Shown here piece by piece: positions 3,940-57,755 of a DNA stretch of 63,739 nucleotides. Source of the stretch: a virus. The stretch's first letter is position 1; every line of letters starts with the position of its first letter. The notes under the pieces were generated by a model. It ran no database searches, was not told the DNA's origin, and was given only the letters and a program-made list of their open reading frames with translations. The translations under genes were made by a program, and so were the position numbers. The stretch spans positions 1 through 63,739 of IMG/VR virus record IMGVR_UViG_3300047560_001667. One strand, written 5' to 3'.

Positions 3940-4800
3940 ATGGCGAATAAATTATTCATAAGTGATGGGAAGTTTTATGTCGTAGCTGCATCACAGAAAA
4001 TAGTTAAACTCCCCCATGATAATACTTTAGAGGTCGTCATCATTGATGCCGCACTTGAGTTTGTGGAAAAGGAAGGTATTAAATCACAATCATTAGCTGT
4101 CGTCATGGCGAACAGAATTGATGGGGATGTGTTCTCATTCACGGTAACTGAAGAATCTATCTTTGGGGATATTGTTCACAATGAGCAAAAGCTCAAAACG
4201 TATCTTGATAAATGCTATGCACATTCTTTACCTTTCTTTGGGCTTGTAACGCGACTTAACATTGTAGGTGAAGACATATCACCCTACATTGCGTTCTCGG
4301 CTGTACGCGCCTTAGATGAGCTTGAGTATCAGGCTGTGCTAAAACAGCGTAAAACGCAAGAATGCGTAGACGCAGTGGGCACTAGTATCTCTTCTATTCC
4401 CATAGGGATTGAGCATTTAAAAGATGGTGTAACTGAAGTTGATCGAGCGTCGTCATTTTTAAATGAAAGTATTTTCAACTTTGTCAAAGCGAACAAACAG
4501 CTCATCCTTATTTCAAATAAAAATAAACGTCATACCGTACTTGAGCAAACAGTAGTTAATGATGTTCCCGTTGCACGTTACGCCAAAGATACAGGTGTGT
4601 TCTATATTGCTATAGCGCAGTTCGATGCGTGGTGTAGAGCTAACGATATAGACCCTTCAGACGTAATCGAAGCGGCTAAAAAAGAAGTGGATGGAGTCAT
4701 TCGATTAGTTAAGCTTGACATGACTTCCGCCAATGGCGTAAAATGCCTGCAAATTGATTTTGACAAACTCTCCCTCGATGAGTCCGCTTTGTTGATTTAA
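3940..4800 (+). CDS. Hypothetical protein, last gene of the rightward arm (286 aa)
   Basis: I do not recognise this protein. It begins MANKLFISDGKFYVVAAS and has a mixed alpha/beta character. Its last third (YIAIAQFDAWCRANDIDPSD, then a run ending VKCLQIDFDKL) resembles the small accessory domains sometimes seen at the C-terminus of phage primase/helicase proteins, but the match is only by eye. It directly precedes the terminator that closes the rightward operon. Confidence 0.75.
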   Translation: MANKLFISDGKFYVVAASQKIVKLPHDNTLEVVIIDAALEFVEKEGIKSQSLAVVMANRIDGDVFSFTVTEESIFGDIVHNEQKLKTYLDKCYAHSLPFFGLVTRLNIVGEDISPYIAFSAVRALDELEYQAVLKQRKTQECVDAVGTSISSIPIGIEHLKDGVTEVDRASSFLNESIFNFVKANKQLILISNKNKRHTVLEQTVVNDVPVARYAKDTGVFYIAIAQFDAWCRANDIDPSDVIEAAKKEVDGVIRLVKLDMTSANGVKCLQIDFDKLSLDESALLI

Positions 4801-15018: not shown

Positions 15019-17378
15019 TGTTTACTAGAATCTTGTGATGCCGACCACGCAATTTGGTCCGCTAAAGAAGGGTTACTTGCGGCTAATGAGTTATACCAAC
15101 TAGTATTAGACGTAATAGCGTTTCGAGTTTCAGGGGTGATATAATCGTTTGCTGTAAACGAAGGCGTAACAGGAGTAGTTGATAAACTCACTTGATTAGG
15201 ATTACTTAAATTAATAGGGGTAGACGTCTCTTGTGGAGGAGGTGTTGGCGCTCCCATTGATAAAGTAACATAATTAGGCTGAGCATTAATAGGTGAAGTT
15301 TGCACAGGTGGGCTATATGCACTTGCTATATTTAAAGGCTCATTAGCCATTGATAAATTAACATAATTAGGCTGAGCATTAATAGGTGTGGACGTTTCTT
15401 GCTGTATTGCATTAGGGATATTTAAAGGCTCATTAGCCATTGATAAATTAACATAATTAGGCTGAGCATTAATAGGTGTGGACGTTTCTTGCTGTATTGC
15501 ATTAGGGATATTTAACAAACTTACAATAGAAGGTGCTCCATTAGCCCCAGTTGCAGCAGTGTTCATATTATCCGTAGAGGTAAAATTTCCTATATTCGTA
15601 GCAATACCAGTATTAGGGGTATATGTTTTTACACTATTAGGATCTGTACGAGCCAAATCTGTATTAAGTGAATCTAAATAAGATTTGGCATTGGTCACAT
15701 TAGAACTCATAGCTGAATTATTAGCATTGGCATTTAAAAACGCTATTGTTCTGTCTTGTTCTGATTTAAGCCAGTTCACTCGATCAGCGGTATTAGCGTT
15801 ATATTGCCCTGCAACACTACTCGCATTTTGCAAACTAGACGCTGTAGTAGTAGGACTAGTATTCCCTGCAAGTGAATCAATTAAAGTAGAGTATTTTATC
15901 TGGTCTGCTAACCCAGGCGTGGTCGTTGCAACAGAATTGTAAAAACTTGGATTAGATGCAAGTGCTGCGCGTGTTTCAGGGGTAACGTAATTGTTAAAGT
16001 TGTATTTAGATAAAAGTGCTTTATTAGCCGCATCTGCTTGCTGTTTTGCTAACGCATCTGCTTGCTGTTTTGCTAACGCATCTGCTTGCTGTTTTGCTAA
16101 CGCATCTGCTTGCTGTTTTGCTAACGCATCTGCTTGCTGTTTTGCTAACGCATCTGCTTGCTGTTTTGCTAGCGCATCTACCGTCGCTTTATTAGCGATT
16201 TGATTTTGGTTATATGTAGGGGAAGAAGTAACCTGTGTATTTAAAGGTTGCAAGGTTCCACTTACATTCCCAAGCCCTAAAATACCCGCAGGGTTGCTCG
16301 TATCATACGTTAGCTTTGGTTTAGCTAAAGAATCTAGCCCCATACCTTGAGTCAAAGGGTCAGTTAAGTTTTTATACACTGCATTGTTTTCAGGTGTACC
16401 GTAGTTAGCACCAGTCACTTTATTGAGCATTGCATCAAGTAACCCCGAATAAGGTGAATTAGCTGTCGCAATACCTTGCTTTGGTGTGTGCCATGTTTTT
16501 AAAGACTTTATACCCCCTGTAGAGGTATTTCCAGTACCCCCTGATGACGTATCAGCAGAGGTACTTGTCGTTGTAGTTGTAGGTTTGTTTAACGCGTTAA
16601 CTTTCGCTACAAATCCAGCAGGGTTTGCTAAAAGGTCTTTTTTAGCCGCAGCAATAGTAGTGGGGTCAGCTGTCACATACGTAGACGCTGTGCTATTTAC
16701 TACTTTGTTTGCCAAACTATCTAATTTATTATTGAATTTAGTTATCGCCCCTAATGTTTTTGCATTAGCTACTTCTTGAAAATCAGCGTCTGAGAACAAT
16801 GGGGTGCCATCCGCATTTTTTAATCCTCCATAATTTGTTTTTAGCGTATCAACTGAGGTACCAGGTTGAACGTAAGCACTACTTCTTATCGAGTTAACTG
16901 CTGTAGCTAATTTAGTAGGGTTATATGGGTCAGCAATTGTACCTTGCGTAATCTTAGCGATTTCCGCTGCTTTTTGGGCGGTACCTAAATTTTTATCAGC
17001 ATTGAGGACACTGTCAATGTACTGAGTTGCATTTGTATTTCTAATTTTATTTAACGTATCATTAGCGGATTTTTGAGTTGCATTATCACCACTGATAATG
17101 TCAACATAAAAGCCATTGCCAAACGGATTGCCAGTCTCATCAAGAATACCTGGGTTATTGGCTTTAAGCCACTCTACCCCTAAGTCAATCGCTAGTTGTC
17201 TTGTTTGAGGTGTTTTAGCCTCTGTGTAATAAGATTGAATTTCTTTTAGTTTATCAGCATAACTATACAATTTAGGTAGTGTAGTACCCCATTTAGCATA
17301 AGATGTACCTGCTGTTTGCGTCCGCCATGCGTTAATAAATGCTTGGTCTTCTGGAGTTAAGTATGATGTTGTCGCCAT
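15015..17378 (-). CDS. Repeat-rich virion protein (787 aa)
   Basis: Starts MATTSYLTPEDQAFINAWRT after an AGGAGACAAAC ribosome site. The N-terminal 250 residues are helical and globular-looking. The centre has six copies of ALAKQQAD, a likely rigid helix. A 40-residue unit (YxTPETRxAxxSNxSxYNS...LADQI) occurs near residue 450 and again at the extreme C-terminus. Between them lie near-identical 30-residue repeats containing SxPINAQPNYVxLSM. Probably an elongated internal or tail-associated structural protein; no enzyme motif seen. Confidence 0.7.
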   Translation of the reverse strand: MATTSYLTPEDQAFINAWRTQTAGTSYAKWGTTLPKLYSYADKLKEIQSYYTEAKTPQTRQLAIDLGVEWLKANNPGILDETGNPFGNGFYVDIISGDNATQKSANDTLNKIRNTNATQYIDSVLNADKNLGTAQKAAEIAKITQGTIADPYNPTKLATAVNSIRSSAYVQPGTSVDTLKTNYGGLKNADGTPLFSDADFQEVANAKTLGAITKFNNKLDSLANKVVNSTASTYVTADPTTIAAAKKDLLANPAGFVAKVNALNKPTTTTTSTSADTSSGGTGNTSTGGIKSLKTWHTPKQGIATANSPYSGLLDAMLNKVTGANYGTPENNAVYKNLTDPLTQGMGLDSLAKPKLTYDTSNPAGILGLGNVSGTLQPLNTQVTSSPTYNQNQIANKATVDALAKQQADALAKQQADALAKQQADALAKQQADALAKQQADALAKQQADAANKALLSKYNFNNYVTPETRAALASNPSFYNSVATTTPGLADQIKYSTLIDSLAGNTSPTTTASSLQNASSVAGQYNANTADRVNWLKSEQDRTIAFLNANANNSAMSSNVTNAKSYLDSLNTDLARTDPNSVKTYTPNTGIATNIGNFTSTDNMNTAATGANGAPSIVSLLNIPNAIQQETSTPINAQPNYVNLSMANEPLNIPNAIQQETSTPINAQPNYVNLSMANEPLNIASAYSPPVQTSPINAQPNYVTLSMGAPTPPPQETSTPINLSNPNQVSLSTTPVTPSFTANDYITPETRNAITSNTSWYNSLAASNPSLADQIAWSASQDSSKQ
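15331..15510 (-). repeat. 90-bp tandem repeat, two copies
   Basis: Two essentially identical 90-base units start at 15331 and 15421 and encode the 30-residue unit with NIPNAIQQETSTPINAQPNY. A decayed third copy lies just to the left (higher residue number). Near identity at DNA level suggests a recent duplication and a site of length variation. Confidence 0.9.
16030..16179 (-). repeat. 24-bp tandem repeat, six copies
   Basis: Six back-to-back 24-base units encode ALAKQQAD. The unit is a multiple of three, so slippage would change length without breaking the frame. The encoded segment is probably a long helix. Confidence 0.93.
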
Positions 17379-43319: not shown

Positions 43320-44828
43320 TCAATAATACTCTCGTTTGCGTCGATAGAATTTTTCTTCTTCAGGCTCATCGAGTATTGTACGCACAAAGTTACCATTTCG
43401 AAAGAAGATGAGTGCTTGACTCACAGTATCCACCAAGTCGTCGTGCATACCGGATGGAAACGCAGCAACATCATCCACAAGCTCATCAGCCCATCGGTAT
43501 TCTGGTGCCCAAACAAAACCGGATGAGAACACATCGGCAATACTATGTAGTCGTGAAATCTTATCGTTACCGCGTGCAGGGGTAAACTCATGCACAGGAA
43601 TACCCATTCGTCTAAGCTCTTGTATTAGCGACATCCCCGATGCACGTTTTTCCACAATCATCGTGTCTGGTGCCCACTCATCATAGGCTTCTTTCACCCA
43701 TTCTTTAAGCTCTGGAAACTCTACACGCTTTTTCACCGCATCAAGGAGCATAATATTAGGCTGACGTGTACCATCATCGTTGTCTGCATCGAACACACCC
43801 CATACAGTCAATGCTGAAAAGTCTGCTCGATTATGTTTTTCAAACGCGGTATCCCACGACATTAAAAGGTAATCCATCGGTGGTGGATTGGGTTTTTCCC
43901 ATCGCTTCCACCATTCACGTTTAATTATCGCCCCTTCTTCAGAAGTTGGATTTTGTAAATACTGAGCATTCCAAAAACGTGGGTCAACAGATAGGCGTGT
44001 TTTCTCTAATTCTTCAAGTGGCCAAAACTCTGGCCATAGGGGTTTGCCTGATGGGAGAATTGCCGGAAACTCGATAACTTCCCATTGGTCGCCATCTGGG
44101 GAGCTAATCATGTTATCAACGAGTCTACCTGTTAAATCTCGGCGCGACCACCGTGTCATAACCAAAATTATGGCGCCCCCCGGCTGAAGGCGTTGACGAG
44201 GACCGGTCATATAATAATCATATACCACATTGTGCGGCTCAGGATTTTGACTTTTCCCTTCTTGTTCACTTATTAGGTCATCGAGGATACATAAATCCGC
44301 TCCTTTCCCGGCAACGGCGCCACCAACACCCATAGCGATATACGTCCCATTCTTATCTGTATTCCATCTAGCCGCAGCGGTAGAGTCCCTGCGCAGGCGA
44401 GTTTCTGGAAAAATAGTATGATAATTATCTGAGTCAACTAAATTTCTAACTTTACGTCCAAACCCTTCAGCCATATCAGCAGTATGGGAGATTTGCATGA
44501 TTTGCTTATTTGGATACAGTCCTAAAAACCATGCTGGTAGTAAATACGATGCAAACTCAGATTTAGTATGACGAGGTGGCATATTGATAATTAACCGCTT
44601 GAGTTTACCTTGTGCTACGCGCTCAAAGGCTCGTGCCATTTTTGCATGGTGACGACCGGGAATAAACTCAGGCCACATACGTTCTACAAATTTAATAAAA
44701 TCTTTTTGAGCAGCGGCTCGTGTGTTGCGATGGTCAAGTTCAGTCAGTAATTCGAGCGCACGGATACGATCCGTTTCACTCATTTGATTGAGAATTTCAG
44801 CGGGAATAGGATTAGGCATTGATGACAT
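43320..44828 (-). CDS. terL: Terminase large subunit
   Basis: 502 aa. The ATPase half carries INMPPRHTKSEFASYLLPAW (Walker A variant RHTKSE near residue 86) and LCILDDLIS (Walker B near 180). The C-terminal nuclease has SWDTAF (near 321), VEKRASGMSLI and HDDLVDT (near 462) for metal binding. It cuts and packages DNA. The circular map fits headful packaging but does not prove it. Start overlaps terS by 17 bases in another frame. Confidence 0.96.
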   Translation of the reverse strand: MSSMPNPIPAEILNQMSETDRIRALELLTELDHRNTRAAAQKDFIKFVERMWPEFIPGRHHAKMARAFERVAQGKLKRLIINMPPRHTKSEFASYLLPAWFLGLYPNKQIMQISHTADMAEGFGRKVRNLVDSDNYHTIFPETRLRRDSTAAARWNTDKNGTYIAMGVGGAVAGKGADLCILDDLISEQEGKSQNPEPHNVVYDYYMTGPRQRLQPGGAIILVMTRWSRRDLTGRLVDNMISSPDGDQWEVIEFPAILPSGKPLWPEFWPLEELEKTRLSVDPRFWNAQYLQNPTSEEGAIIKREWWKRWEKPNPPPMDYLLMSWDTAFEKHNRADFSALTVWGVFDADNDDGTRQPNIMLLDAVKKRVEFPELKEWVKEAYDEWAPDTMIVEKRASGMSLIQELRRMGIPVHEFTPARGNDKISRLHSIADVFSSGFVWAPEYRWADELVDDVAAFPSGMHDDLVDTVSQALIFFRNGNFVRTILDEPEEEKFYRRKREYY

Positions 44829-45294
44829 TAAGCGAACTCATATATTTGTTCATCAACCCTTGCAGGTCTTTTTCAAGTTCATCCGTTGTTTTATTACCAA
44901 TATCAATACTGATTTTAGTTTCAAACAAGCCAACTTCAGCAATTTTACCAATCTTCTCTATTGCCCCTAAAGCCACACTCTCTTTTTCACTTTCTGCTAA
45001 ATCGAGCAGGCGTGAGATAGCATAGGTTCGCAGGCGTGCTGACTCATCAGCCATAGAAAAATCATATTGCGCTAATAAGCGTCTTGCTGCAATGGCCGCG
45101 CCAGGTGTAGTGGGTTTGCTTGGGGCAGACGGTGTTTGGAAGACAAACGCTCTAGCTTCTTTCTCATCTTCTTTTGTTGGGTTGATTTGAATTTTATTTG
45201 CATCAACAAATGACGGATCGCAGCAGGCGTTATTCCATAATTGTGGCAGAGGGAGTTTTGGTTCCCAGATAAAATTTAGGATGTTTGTGTCCAT
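44812..45294 (-). CDS. terS: Terminase small subunit candidate (160 aa)
   Basis: I use the ATG at 45294 (MDTNILNFIWEPKLPLPQLW), since the upstream part to 45417 overlaps DnaA-box DNA and lacks a ribosome site. A central helix-turn segment (ARRLLAQYDFSMADESARLR) and a C-terminal ESEKESVALGAIEKIGKIAE helix fit an oligomerising small terminase. Position next to terL at the start of the virion arm supports the call, but sequence identity to a named family is not evident. Confidence 0.7.
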   Translation of the reverse strand: MDTNILNFIWEPKLPLPQLWNNACCDPSFVDANKIQINPTKEDEKEARAFVFQTPSAPSKPTTPGAAIAARRLLAQYDFSMADESARLRTYAISRLLDLAESEKESVALGAIEKIGKIAEVGLFETKISIDIGNKTTDELEKDLQGLMNKYMSSLNVINA

Positions 45295-47671: not shown

Positions 47672-47703
47672 TGATCGTACTCTTTCAATAACTAAATAGC
47701 CCT

Positions 47704-47731
47704 AAAGCCCTGTAGCAATATAGGGCTTTTT
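47704..47731 (+). terminator. Rho-independent terminator of the first early operon
   Basis: AAAGCCCT (47704-47711) pairs with AGGGCTTT (47722-47729) across a 10-base loop, followed by TTATT. It closes the operon of six small early genes. Confidence 0.85.
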
Positions 47732-47761
47732 ATTGTCTAAAATAAATCACTTTTAAACACG

Positions 47762-47827
47762 TTTTAAGCCTTGTTTACACGTTAACCGATACCAACGTAT
47801 TACCCAAACATCAAACAAGGCTTAAAA
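47762..47827. repeat. 15-bp perfect inverted repeat
   Basis: TTTTAAGCCTTGTTT (47762-47776) and AAACAAGGCTTAAAA (47813-47827) are exact reverse complements 36 bases apart. They lie in the gene-free stretch between the terminator and the promoter at 47920. No T run follows the right arm on either strand, so it is not a simple terminator. Confidence 0.85.
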
Positions 47828-47919
47828 GGCGTTTAAATGCAATCTAACGCTATAAAACATGACATCATCAAACTATAAAAAACAAGGTAAACCTATAGGA
47901 TCATTTTAAAACTACATAT

Positions 47920-47947
47920 TTTACTCACTTATCGAGTTTGCTATAGT
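47920..47947 (+). promoter_or_regulatory. Promoter upstream of the duplicated HNH gene
   Basis: TTTACT (-35) and TATAGT (-10) are spaced by 16 bases. The -10 lies in a perfect palindrome GCTATA-G-TATAGC, and the -35 overlaps one TTACTCAC element. It drives the gene at 47986. Confidence 0.6.
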
Positions 47948-47985
47948 ATAGCGTTCACATTCACGCTAACTAACACGGACAAAAT

Positions 47986-48819
47986 ATGGCAAAGAAAATA
48001 GACATGGGACTCAACGCGCTTAACGCAGCTCAACCCTACAAGTACAAGCACACGCGATTAGCACGCGAACCATCGCAGTGGTTAACACCTACGCAATTGC
48101 GAAAATTACTTATTTACGATCCTGACACGGGCGTTTTTGAGTATAGAGAAAAAACACGCGGGCGATATAGAACCCCATTCAAAGGCACGCCTGTAGTAAA
48201 GAAAGCGTATAAACAAGAGCTTGCACGGGATGGAACGACCGTCATTGTCGATGACTTAGACAAGTCCGTCATTGAAGGCCTGCGCTTTAAGTATAAAAAT
48301 CACAATTACTTATGCCATCAAATGGCGTGGGCAATAGTGAAGGGGGAGTGGCGGCCAATCTATCACATCAACGGCAACAAGCTAGACAATCGATGGTGTA
48401 ATCTAACAGACGATAAACGCCTAGTGGATACCATTAAATCGAACCTACACGCCCACCACATCAAGCGATCACTTGAGATTACACGCGAGCACATCAAAGA
48501 AGATATGCGTTTGCGCCAAGAGAAGTACACCAACTACATCACAGACGGTGATAAGCTCATGTACAACCCTGACACGGGCGAATTCGCTTGGAAGCCTAAA
48601 CCCCCACACCATATCCCCAGATGGTCACACGGCACGTTTAATAAAACGGACGGATCACGCTACGTCACATTCAAAGATGAAGAGAACAAAGCCTGCATCG
48701 TTCCATGTCATTATGCTGCATGGATATGTATGACAGGGAGATATCCTGTTGGTCGTATTTATCACGCAGATAAAAACAAATCCAATAACGCGTGGGAAAA
48801 TTTAATTCTACGCACGTAA
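47986..48819 (+). CDS. Tandem HNH-like protein (277 aa)
   Basis: Two halves repeat the same plan: YDPDTGVFEYREK...HQMAWAIVKGEWRP-IYHINGNKLDNRWCNL and YNPDTGEFAWKPK...HYAAWICMTGRYPVGRIYHADKNKSNNAWENL. This is an HNH_3-type fold with H...N...H positions. In both halves the usual DH of the nuclease is YH, so catalysis may be weak or lost. Typical HNH_3 proteins are homing nucleases. Its own promoter and isolation between terminator and repeats fit a mobile gene. Confidence 0.85.
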   Translation: MAKKIDMGLNALNAAQPYKYKHTRLAREPSQWLTPTQLRKLLIYDPDTGVFEYREKTRGRYRTPFKGTPVVKKAYKQELARDGTTVIVDDLDKSVIEGLRFKYKNHNYLCHQMAWAIVKGEWRPIYHINGNKLDNRWCNLTDDKRLVDTIKSNLHAHHIKRSLEITREHIKEDMRLRQEKYTNYITDGDKLMYNPDTGEFAWKPKPPHHIPRWSHGTFNKTDGSRYVTFKDEENKACIVPCHYAAWICMTGRYPVGRIYHADKNKSNNAWENLILRT

Positions 48820-48838
48820 AATAAAATCCTAACTTCCG

Positions 48839-48869
48839 CACTCACTGCGGTCATTTACGGCAGTGAGTG
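48839..48869. repeat. Inverted repeat after the HNH gene
   Basis: CACTCACTGC (48839-48848) and GCAGTGAGTG (48860-48869) are reverse complements with an 11-base loop; flanking CCG/CGG extend it with a bulge. There is no T run directly after, so it is an imperfect terminator at best between convergent genes. Confidence 0.7.
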
Positions 48870-48910
48870 ATGCGGCAGTGGTTGCACGGCTAAAATGATA
48901 CAAAGAAAAT

Positions 48911-49218
48911 TTGCTCACTACATTTACTCTTACTCACTAAAAACCCTTGTATTGCTCACTTAAGTAAACGTTTTTTTTTTTTCCTATATTTACCCTCTTT
49001 TTACCTATTTTTATCTATTTATACTATTTCTTATTTTTTATTATTTATTGTGAGATTAAGAGTAAATAATAGTATAAATATATAAAAATCAATAACTTAT
49101 AGATTACTCATAATAATTACTCACTATAAATGAGTAAAGAGTAATTTTTGATTTGTGAGTAAAGACCTTAAAAATGAAATGGTCTTTACTCACATTAGCA
49201 AAAAGCCCTTGTGAGTAA
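48911..49218. repeat. Cluster of [T]TACTCAC/GTGAGTAA octamers with T-rich tract
   Basis: TTACTCAC occurs at 48930, 49117 and 49186, the variants TTGCTCAC at 48911 and 48952 and TTACTCAT at 49104, and the inverted GTGAGTAA at 49155 and 49211 (ATGAGTAA at 49130). Two copies form a 13-bp stem, GTGAGTAAAGACC/GGTCTTTACTCAC (49155-49193). A run of 12 T and very AT-rich DNA lie among them. This about 400-base stretch holds no gene. Confidence 0.85.
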
Positions 49219-49222
49219 AAAA

Positions 49223-54601: not shown

Positions 54602-54657
54602 TTGACACCTCAAAAGTGTCAGCGTACAATTGACATCGGCAACTTAGCCAATACAAC
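54602..54657 (+). promoter_or_regulatory. Double promoter before DUF2815, with motif copy 5
   Basis: TTGACA (54602-54607) with TACAAT (54625-54630) at 17 bases is a near-consensus sigma70 promoter. The overlapping motif TGTCAGCGTACAATTGACA (54617-54635) supplies a second TTGACA (54630-54635) with TACAAC (54652-54657) 16 bases later. TGACAC...GTGTCA (54603-54621) adds a dyad at the first -35. It is the strongest promoter seen in the window and lies upstream of the structured RNA region. Confidence 0.85.
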
Positions 54658-54678: not shown

Positions 54679-55194
54679 ATGAGTTCTAAATTAAAATTAC
54701 AAAATGTACGTTTGTCTTTTCCATCTTTGTTTAACAAAGCTGTGTTCAACGGCAACGTAACAAAATATGAAGCCACATTTTTAATGCCTAAAGGTTCACC
54801 TCAGCACAAACAAACGCAAGCAGCCATCGATGCGTTCATTGCTGAGAAGTTCCAAGGCAAAGCCCCTAAAGGTTTGAAGATCACCGCTTTTACTGACGGT
54901 GATGAAAAAGATTATGATGGTTATGAAAACCAAATGGCGTTAAAAGGTGGTAGCACTAAGCGTGTACTGCTTATCGACAAAGACAAAACACCATTGACCG
55001 AAGAAGATGGCCGCCTCTATGCAGGTTGTTATGTCAACGCTATCGTGGAGTTTTGGTATAGTGACCATCCATTAGGTGGTAAACAGATTCTAGGCAACTT
55101 ACTTGGCGTTCAGTTCGCTAAAGATGGCGAACCGTTTGGTGATAACACCGGAGCAAGTATCGATGACTTTGATGAGATCGATGACGAGTTCTAA
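54679..55194 (+). CDS. DUF2815 family single-stranded-DNA-binding-like protein (171 aa)
   Basis: SSKLKLQNVRLSFPSLFNKA and YEATFLMPKGSPQHKQTQAA, then GGKQILGNLLGVQFAKDGEP, are the DUF2815 pattern. The acidic tail (SIDDFDEIDDEF) resembles the C-terminal protein-docking tail of SSBs. The family always sits beside DUF2800, and a replication-linked SSB role is likely. It has a strong promoter and the AAAAGGATACAATC ribosome leader. Confidence 0.9.
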   Translation: MSSKLKLQNVRLSFPSLFNKAVFNGNVTKYEATFLMPKGSPQHKQTQAAIDAFIAEKFQGKAPKGLKITAFTDGDEKDYDGYENQMALKGGSTKRVLLIDKDKTPLTEEDGRLYAGCYVNAIVEFWYSDHPLGGKQILGNLLGVQFAKDGEPFGDNTGASIDDFDEIDDEF

Positions 55195-55204
55195 GTAATA
55201 CCTA

Positions 55205-55888
55205 TCTGCACCTCAGTAATGGGGTGCAGAGCTATCAGTGAAACATCCTGTATTTACTCTAGGGGCGTTTCTTGCTACAGACACACACTCAACCGCAGGG
55301 TGTTTCACTGATGGTTAACACCATAAAAGAGCAAACAGCATAGAAATATGCTCAATGGTTGTGCGGACGATGGGTGATATAGGACGCACTGACAGCTTGG
55401 AAAGACAAGCATTATCAAATACTATTTAATTGGGTGTAAAGCTCAGGGTTAATCGAAATGTCACTCGACGGAGTGAAAACTAGATTGCGATAATTTTAAT
55501 TAAACACCTAGATAGTGCGCATAACTAGGCAGTAATTAAAAGAATGCTAGAGCGTCCCATGTGATTGGGAAGGTCACCCGTGTGGGTCACCCAATTAAAT
55601 AGTATTTATGACAGCTTGGAAAGACAAGCACTATCAATGAGTAGGTTTGTGGGTGTCCTCACAGACCCAAAAAAGGTGTGAGCAGTCGTGTAATGATGTA
55701 GTTTCACGTTAAGTAACAGACTTACTCATTGATAGCTTGGAAAGACAAGCACTATGAATAAAAGCCGTTAGAAAAGGTGCATAAATACAAACAATTATGC
55801 TGGGCGTGAAGCGGCTTTTCTTGATAGTTCTAAGTAACATCTTTCTTTTAACCAAGACGATATATCAAGCGACTTAGTTCTATCATCA
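55205..55888 (+). ncRNA. Large structured RNA region with three repeated hairpins (candidate ornate ncRNA)
   Basis: No gene lies in this stretch, yet it is dense in paired arms. In order: TCTGCACC/GGTGCAGA (55205/55223); ATCAGTGAAACA/TGTTTCACTGAT (55234/55301); AGCATA-GAAA-TATGCT (55337-55352); hairpin unit 1 GCTTG-GAAAGA-CAAGC (55395-55410); a 19-bp arm pair AATACTATTTAATTGGGTG/CACCCAATTAAATAGTATT (55418/55588); unit 2 (55614-55629); CTATCAATGAGTA/TACTCATTGATAG (55631/55723); unit 3 (55735-55750); AAAAGCCG/CGGCTTTT (55760/55812); TGATAGTTCTAAGT/ACTTAGTTCTATCA (55822/55872). A terminator follows directly. The layout resembles an ornate large phage RNA. Shared transcription with DUF2815 is likely. 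Confidence 0.7.
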
Positions 55889-55889
55889 C

Positions 55890-55927
55890 AACCTCTATGC
55901 TTTCCTCTATGAGCATAGAGGTTTTTT
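55890..55927 (+). terminator. Strong terminator after the structured RNA region
   Basis: AACCTCTATGCT (55890-55901) and AGCATAGAGGTT (55912-55923) form a 12-bp perfect stem with a 10-base loop, running into six T. It lies 25 bases before the DNA polymerase ATG, so polymerase expression would need read-through or antitermination. Confidence 0.93.
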
Positions 55928-55952
55928 CACATCTATTATAAGGATACCCCTT

Positions 55953-57755
55953 ATGGCTATTATCATTGATACAGAATGCTACAAAAACTACTGGTTATTC
56001 GCCGCGCTCAACACAGAGACTAAACGTGTACGCCAAGTAGAAATTTACGACAACGCGTCTCTATCTGAAGACGATATTAAACTCATACGCGATACGATGA
56101 AGCGAGAAACAGTTAGCTTCAATGGTATCAAGTATGACCTACCTATGATTACCGCTGCGCTATCTGGCTATACGACCAAAGCACTACACAAACTCAGCAA
56201 TGAACTCATCTTATCTAATCTCCCTTCTTGGCACATTGTCCGTCAGCACGAGCTAAACGTAGCGGACTACACTCACATAGACTTAATTGAAATCGCTATC
56301 GGTCAAGGGAGTCTTAAAGTGTATGGGAGTAGACTGCATTGCAAAACCCTGCAAGATTTACCTATTGAACCCGATGAGATTATCTCCCCTGCTCAACGTG
56401 AGCAACTTAAAGTGTACTGTCGCAATGACCTTGAGTTAACGCAGCTGCTCTACACTACCCTGCTACCTCAAATTGAACTGCGCAAATCGATGAGTAAGCA
56501 ATACGGTATTGATCTTAATTCTAAGTCTGATGCGCAAATTGCTGAAGCACTCATCAAATCTGAGATGCAATCACTCTATAAGATACCTTTAGCTAAGTTC
56601 AAAGCGAAAAGCTACGATGCGCGGCACAGCTTCAACTATCGTGATCCAAAGATTATCAAGTTCAAATCAGCTGAGCTAAACGCTGTGTTTAAAAGATTAC
56701 TCACTGAGAAGTTCACCATTGCAGATAGCGGTACACTTGAATGTCCTAAATGGTTGAGTGAGCGTATCACTATAGGAACAACCGAGTATCAAATGGGTAT
56801 CGGTGGTATTCACTCCTGTGAAAAAGCACAGTACATCACAAGCAATGACGAGTACGCACTATCTGATTTTGATGTTGGCTCATTCTATCCGAGCATCATT
56901 ATGCAGCAACAGCTTTACCCAGATACATTAGGTAAAGACTTCTTAACTCTCTATAAGTCTATTATCAATCGCCGTATTGAAGCTAAACGCAATGGGGATA
57001 AAGTCACAGCGGACACACTTAAAATTTGTTTGAACGGGAGCTACGGCAAGTTCGGCAGTAAGTACAGTTTCCTATATTCACCTGAGCTGTTATTGCAGAC
57101 TACGATTACAGGTCAACTATCTTTGCTCATGCTAATCGAAACGCTTGAAGGTAATGGCATTAAAGTGGTGAGTGCGAATACCGATGGGATTGTTGTTTAT
57201 TATAAGTACACCGAGTTAGACAAAGTACATGATTTGCTTTGGGATTGGGAGCTTCAGACATCTTATCAACTTGAGCAAACAGATTACCAAGAAATAGCAT
57301 CAAGAGATGTGAACTCATACCTTGCCATTAAAACGGATGGTAGCTACAAAGGTAAAGGTATCTTCACCGCTGAGTCTATTGGTAAGAATCCTGATGGTCG
57401 CATTGTGTATGACGCAGTAACGCAGCGGGTTATCAATGGTACACCAATCCAGCAAACTATTTCCGAGTGTAAAGACATCACTAAGTTCATTAGCTGTCGA
57501 AGAGTTACAGGTGGTGCTGTGTTTGATGGTGAGTACTTAGGTAAAGCCATTCGTTTCTATCACAGCAATGACCCTGCTTTGCAAGATAAACAATTAGAGT
57601 ACAAGAAGAACGGAAACAAAGTCCCACTCTCACAAGCGTGTCGCCCTTGCATGGTACTGCCTGATACATTCCCTGTGGACGTGGATTTAAATTACTACAT
57701 TACAAAAGCAAACGAATTACTAGAGGATATTGGTTATGTTAGAAAAGCAAGTTGA
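55953..57755 (+). CDS. Family B DNA polymerase with proofreading exonuclease (600 aa)
   Basis: Exonuclease motifs: IIDTECYK (Exo I, residues 4-11), NGIKYDLPM (Exo II) and YCRNDLELT (Exo III). Polymerase motifs: DFDVGSFYPSI (motif A, near 305), KICLNGSYGKFG (motif B, near 358) and ANTDGI (motif C, near 408). Motif C is NTDG rather than the usual DTD. The compact 600 aa is short for family B. Many phages with DUF2800/DUF2815 use a family A enzyme instead. It follows the structured RNA and terminator. Confidence 0.93.
   Translation: MAIIIDTECYKNYWLFAALNTETKRVRQVEIYDNASLSEDDIKLIRDTMKRETVSFNGIKYDLPMITAALSGYTTKALHKLSNELILSNLPSWHIVRQHELNVADYTHIDLIEIAIGQGSLKVYGSRLHCKTLQDLPIEPDEIISPAQREQLKVYCRNDLELTQLLYTTLLPQIELRKSMSKQYGIDLNSKSDAQIAEALIKSEMQSLYKIPLAKFKAKSYDARHSFNYRDPKIIKFKSAELNAVFKRLLTEKFTIADSGTLECPKWLSERITIGTTEYQMGIGGIHSCEKAQYITSNDEYALSDFDVGSFYPSIIMQQQLYPDTLGKDFLTLYKSIINRRIEAKRNGDKVTADTLKICLNGSYGKFGSKYSFLYSPELLLQTTITGQLSLLMLIETLEGNGIKVVSANTDGIVVYYKYTELDKVHDLLWDWELQTSYQLEQTDYQEIASRDVNSYLAIKTDGSYKGKGIFTAESIGKNPDGRIVYDAVTQRVINGTPIQQTISECKDITKFISCRRVTGGAVFDGEYLGKAIRFYHSNDPALQDKQLEYKKNGNKVPLSQACRPCMVLPDTFPVDVDLNYYITKANELLEDIGYVRKAS

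Follow-up and report, generated by a model that had tools for sequence, protein, structure and literature searches.

The stretch between the genes for an ssDNA-binding protein and a DNA polymerase in the viral DNA analyzed here (63,739 nucleotides, referred to as the window) probably specifies a horizontally shuffled, polycistronic chain of structured small RNAs, the units of which are marked by a constant hairpin termed H. The array appears to be composed of a head hairpin, four cassettes (M0 to M3), a tail, and a terminator, with a copy of H opening M1, M2, and M3 and with M0 following the head hairpin. The initial annotation had proposed a giant structured non-coding RNA at this position. 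Its underlying observation of a strongly folding gap without a plausible gene and without an Rfam family was confirmed, and the covariation of the hairpin, of M1, and of a pseudoknot, together with the absence of a gene, supports a structured non-coding RNA. The idea of a single giant molecule found no support: the pieces behave as separate cassettes that a close relative may have or lack, and a generic phage hairpin joins them.

The array locus and its cassettes

Positions refer to the window, and features lie on the + strand unless stated otherwise. The upstream neighbor of the array is the ssDNA-binding protein gene (DUF2815; Pfam Enc34_ssDNA-bd, 3.9e-29; 54679-55194), and its downstream neighbor is a family B-like DNA polymerase gene (55953-57755; weak match to Pfam DNA_pol_B_2; 48% to the DNA polymerase of a Pseudoalteromonas phage). 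We define here the cassette array of this locus by its position between both genes and by cassettes closed by CTATCA/TGATAG arms, and the window possesses both. A strong promoter had been proposed at 54602; the sigma-70-like pattern is real (TTGACA-17-TACAAT, 54602-54630, 11 of 12 positions matching), but it precedes the ssDNA-binding protein gene and thus does not belong solely to the RNA, and shuffled sequences contain as many promoter-like sites. The array would most likely be transcribed with the replication operon.

Among all gaps of at least 120 nt in the window, that at 55195-55952 has the strongest fold, with z scores against shuffled sequence of -13.4 on the + strand and -5.9 on the - strand. 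Since a DNA inverted repeat alone would not favor one strand so clearly, this asymmetry argues for a fold at the RNA level. The array stretch as RNA gave z = -11.4, far below shuffled sequence, and its predicted fold is a row of individual stems that no long-range helix encloses. No open reading frame of at least 40 amino acids was found on the + strand, and a single one of 48 amino acids on the - strand.

A 14-nt direct repeat, AGTTCTAAGTAAYA, identified in a repeat search, flanks the array (55187-55200 and 55826-55839). The predicted head hairpin (55205-55230) is kept as CTCTGCACC..GGTGCAGAG in L001 and L002, the nearest relatives of the window (88% and 85% in the neighboring protein). At the other end, the predicted tail stem TGATAGTTCTAAG/CTTAGTTCTATCA (55823-55885), also retained in these two relatives, can compete with the closing stem of M3; it is followed by the intrinsic terminator (55890-55927), which has the 12-nt arms already reported (55890-55923) and then T6.

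The cassettes after each H are closed by arms such as ACTATCAA/TTGATAGT. M0 (55231-55315), delimited by its arms and fold, has the long closing stem CTATCAGTGAAACAtCCTG/CAGGGTGTTTCACTGATGG and is present in L001 and L002; the helix is 100% paired and contains one compensatory pair, a result that was reached by 163 of 500 shuffles. The arm pair noted earlier before the first H copy is present, but measures 17 nt (94%) instead of 12 bp, and the AGCATA-GAAA-TATGCT hairpin, also noted before this copy, lies at 55338-55353 in the spacer between M0 and H1.

M1 (55412-55608) contains internal helices within a perfect closing stem of 20 bp (55417-55436/55588-55607), reported earlier as 19 bp. It has a homologue in L114, located in the same gene neighborhood, with 85.3% nucleotide identity, whereas the adjoining polymerase gene shares only 57% nucleotide identity between the two (53% for the protein over its first part), which indicates horizontal movement of the M1 cassette. 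In the alignment of both M1 sequences, 8 of 59 pairs vary, of which 6, distributed over five different helices, changed on both sides; no pair is broken, and slid controls gave 0-1 compensatory changes. On the structure predicted from these two sequences, which are also the two compared, the compensatory changes in M1 are the strongest single evidence for selection on RNA structure. No further homologues of M1 and M3 were detected in IMG/VR beyond those in L114 and L001.

M2 (55631-55735), delimited by its arms and fold, is closed by CTATCAATGAGT/ACTCATTGATAG. The arm pair described between the second and third H copies exists, and was found as a 20-nt pair with 90% complementarity instead of the claimed 13 bp. 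M2 harbors a putative H-type pseudoknot (55652-55682) formed by GGT..ACC and CTCACA..TGTGAG with an A-rich loop, for which 17 homologues were found. These 17 distinct forms, selected for a paired second stem, are 100% paired, with a covariation score of 0.488 compared to 0.171 in shuffles, a value reached by none of 500 shuffles. Of 48 GTCCTC..A4 sites, 17 pair fully, compared to 3.2 (at most 7) with swapped letters. M3 (55751-55828), closed by ACTATGAATAAAAGCCG/CGGCTTTTCTTGATAGT, occurs in L001 behind a different 5' linker, and there is almost no variation between the two copies to compare. The arm pair AAAAGCCG/CGGCTTTT after the third H copy and the subsequent TGATAG/CTATCA pair were found as described.

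Taken together, the compensatory changes seen in M1 as well as in the pseudoknot, and the preference of the fold for one strand, show selection on RNA structure. The initial annotation had taken the differing arms in equal places as fitting selection on structure; they differ because the cassettes are different elements, and not through drift of a single element under a retained fold.

The leader hairpin H in the window and across phages

The three GCTTG-GAAAGA-CAAGC hairpins were located at 55395, 55614, and 55735, as previously claimed, and their near-identical flanks form part of 35-nt repeats that are 80-86% identical. The consensus in the window is TGAYAG-CTTG-GAAAGA-CAAG-CA, also written TGAYAG-CTTGGAAAGACAAG-CA. 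We define the phage H-hairpin leader element as TGAYAG-stem-GGAAAGAC-stem-CA with a complementary stem, and the window was found to possess three copies, recognized from sequence and repeats: H1 (55390-55411), a member of the covarying family with the form TGACAG-CTTGGAAAGACAAG-CA; H2 (55609-55630); and H3 (55730-55751), a TGATAG form whose 5' flank also closes M2.

The exact H 17-mer was found in at least 119 stretches of viral contigs. In a second search, the 3' stem half was left free and the stem sequence of the window was excluded; the 3' half was fully complementary in 95 of 122 distinct contexts, as compared to about 2 expected by chance, and the stems observed include CCC/GGG, CCG/CGG, CCT/AGG, and CCA/TGG. 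Intergenic copies are strongly oriented, with 128 co-directional with the next gene and 26 opposite. Among 288 distinct hairpins, a tRNA on the same strand starts within 400 nt downstream in 53 cases, and none has a nearby tRNA on the opposite strand; in 24 cases the tRNA starts 4-7 nt after H, and tRNA distances upstream of H show no such peak. Other copies are located before start codons or terminators. The covariation, strand bias, and tRNA spacing show H to be an RNA-level element, which phages employ both in the array and as a 5' leader of tRNAs. These sequence comparisons thus establish H as a genuine element that covaries, is strand-specific, and also stands before phage tRNA genes.

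A BLAST of the whole region against the INPHARED phages gave no match. Matches of the CTTG form of H in this collection are mostly due to chance, with the exception of Acinetobacter phage Alexa, and the CCGG form was found in long unannotated gaps of cultured phages; phages with H in such gaps include Acinetobacter phage Alexa, Enterobacteria phage mEp390, Stenotrophomonas phage Pokken, and Pseudomonas phage Medea1. In L011, a 322-kb contig, H occurs four or five times at 4129-4508, with three copies spaced 78 nt apart around a near-identical unit.

No enrichment was seen for a kissing partner of the H loop, as TCTTTC occurred within 500 nt in 34 of 313 cases, compared to 33-49 for permuted hexamers. 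The invariant loop GGAAAGAC is part of 23S rRNA 2054-2068, a TLR13 ligand region (PMC12887398), which is probably a coincidence because the flanks and the stem differ. Mimicry of CRISPR repeats was rejected, as the H repeats match no CRISPR family; a CRISPR-DR4 match at 55303-55346 remained below the Rfam threshold (14.8 versus 35 bits).

Cassette turnover and related modules

Close relatives differ in what lies between the constant ends of the locus. L001 and L002 keep the head, M0, the tail, and the terminator and differ in the middle; both are devoid of M1 and M2, with L002 holding M0 alone and L001 holding M0, another linker, and M3. Among 21 related contigs, distinct after removal of duplicates and near-identical up to the first H, the first slot was occupied by one of nine different RNA cassettes or by an HNH_3 endonuclease open reading frame, the latter behind the first H in L391 and L403. 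The H before one and the same cassette alternates between CTTG..CAAG and CCG..CGG in related contigs. Across loci, 21 cassette families with 54 distinct occurrences were identified, the same cassette being found with different linkers, and some relatives have the terminator alone at this locus. In L114, the M1 homologue is flanked by two cassettes that Rfam scores as tRNA (35.5 and 32.4 bits) and in which ARAGORN gave no clear anticodon. This comparative evidence shows that the cassettes are RNA folds conserved separately, each of which phages acquire, lose, or swap as a whole. The same locus is also carried by L257, a contig from a Methylococcaceae assembly (Lake Erken), a hint that the host of its group may belong to this family.

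Related modules were detected elsewhere. The linker S2, consisting of AATGCGYAGGCTGATRCGC, a variable part, and GCCGGAGATCAGCACCGGC, with two hairpins bearing the complementary loops GCTGAT and ATCAGC, was found in numerous prophages as well as in lambdoid late leaders, for instance that of HK620, and HK620-like late leaders share this linker module with the arrays of the relatives. S2 modules from late leaders and prophages comprise L263-L351 and HK620 15560-16540. No Rfam match was obtained for the S2 and late-leader modules.

Another group consists of tRNA-like modules in 26 contigs (including L013, L022, L031, L063, L073, L088, L089, and L111), in which arbitrary sequence replaces the anticodon arm of a constant body (AGTCAGGTGGCGGAAT.. 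/ ..CAGGTTCGAATCCTGTCCTGACT). Of these 35 distinct modules of 62-179 nt, 9 were called by ARAGORN and 14 have H at most 40 nt upstream; they look like naturally tRNA-scaffolded RNAs.

In the window, an HNH_3 endonuclease gene (47986-48819) is flanked on both sides by a gap with a strong fold (region 47672-49222): the gap at 47672-47985 has a fold z of -6, and that at 48820-49222 a z of -8.6 on the - strand, with TGTGAGTAAAGACC/GGTCTTTACTCACA arms and TGAGTAAA repeats. In L026, L064, L109, and L114 the polymerase gene is interrupted near residue 350 by approximately 800 nt, either an intein or an intron.

Known systems and explanations for the array

GOLLD and ROOL are single conserved large phage RNA molecules. 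The array resembles them as a large structured phage non-coding RNA tied to tRNA arrays, but differs in being composed of exchangeable cassettes, each with its own closing stem, without a conserved core or a covariance-model match; cmscan listed no GOLLD, ROOL, OLE, or HEARO at the gathering score in the window, nor at E up to 10 within 55150-56000. With phage tRNA arrays it shares the polycistronic arrangement of structured RNAs, the H hairpin 4-7 nt before tRNA genes, and, in related arrays, cassettes that score as tRNA. However, none of the cassettes of the window is a tRNA, and long closing stems take the place of 7-bp acceptor stems; neither ARAGORN nor Rfam RF00005 identified a tRNA in the window, whereas RF00005 matches do occur in the arrays of relatives. 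The late leader of lambdoid phages (from pR' to the holin gene; HK620, lambda) is likewise a structured untranslated stretch between a promoter and genes, but its position in the late lysis operon is different and the lambda leader is without H; for the lambda leader and the window array a likeness, and not homology, is claimed. Like integron gene-cassette arrays, exchangeable cassettes are found at constant junctions, but here the cassettes are RNAs, the junctions are strand-specific RNA hairpins, and no dedicated integrase is implied. The prophage Pas sRNAs (PMC13192938) were rejected as a match, as they are sRNAs with their own terminators. No matching description of a hairpin before phage tRNAs or of RNA-cassette arrays was found in the open-access literature. 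The nearest known kinds are phage tRNA arrays and GOLLD/ROOL, and a prior description outside the open-access literature is possible.

The main rival to a chain of small RNAs is a single giant ornate RNA of the GOLLD or ROOL kind, folded in one piece and perhaps multimeric, with the cassettes as peripheral domains. The size of about 700 nt, the phage origin, and the extensive structure are in its favor, as are the reports that ROOL and GOLLD are phage RNAs often located near tRNA islands and that, in GOLLD, the 5' half is less conserved and tRNAs may be contained in a linker (PMC12286853). We nevertheless regard it as unlikely, given the separate stems of the predicted fold, relatives in which the locus persists while the number of cassettes is one, two, or several, and arrays that share neither a common core nor a GOLLD/ROOL match. 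It is quite unlikely that the array acts as a structured leader through which the polymerase gene is regulated by transcriptional antitermination or attenuation, with H as a binding element for RNA polymerase or a factor. Its place upstream of the polymerase gene with a terminator at the end would fit, as would the similar modules in lambdoid late leaders, downstream of a Q-dependent promoter, and the strong fold of the lambda leader after tR' (44815-45186, z -7.0); yet cassettes are swapped wholesale or absent without a matching change in the neighboring genes, and H is found before tRNAs, start codons, and terminators as well.

That the locus itself has no RNA function and is a hot spot of selfish or neutral insertions, namely HNH homing endonucleases and their remnants, is suggested by the HNH_3 frame in the slot of two contigs behind the same H, by the other HNH gene of the window phage, and by the interrupted polymerase gene of some relatives. 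This reading is very unlikely in view of the asymmetric folding of the two strands and of the compensatory changes, which are found both in M1 and in the pseudoknot. Least credible is a recombination platform at the DNA level, where cassettes would move at single-stranded recombination sites formed by the hairpins and inverted repeats, in the manner of integron attC sites. Shuffling at constant linkers and the direct repeat around the array are compatible with it, but H is strand-locked to neighboring genes and tRNA 5' ends, which recombination sites need not be, and ordinary homologous recombination at shared linkers suffices.

In the favored chain of H-marked small RNAs, H would mark the 5' end of each unit for independent folding and for excision or protection, much as happens in tRNA precursors; together with the closing stem, the constant H would form a scaffold presenting a variable inner RNA, and the units may act independently. 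Given the turnover and the tRNA-like members in relatives, one guess, which we consider doubtful, is that during infection the variable RNAs serve the phage as decoys or anti-defense RNAs, a role that would explain the cassette turnover. More broadly, and tentatively, phages of many hosts might share a scaffolded RNA effector system, in which a leader hairpin and a constant stem or tRNA body carry a fast-changing insert and units are traded like protein 'morons'; the array of the window, the aberrant tRNA-like modules, and the lambdoid S2 modules would then be its branches.

H provides a searchable signature for unannotated structured RNAs in phage genomes, including those of cultured phages. 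If the proposed explanation is true, a hypervariable, exchangeable RNA array would give phages a novel means of carrying non-coding RNA functions and of exchanging them with one another, and the rapid turnover in close relatives, a pattern to be expected from an arms race, points to candidate anti-defense RNAs.
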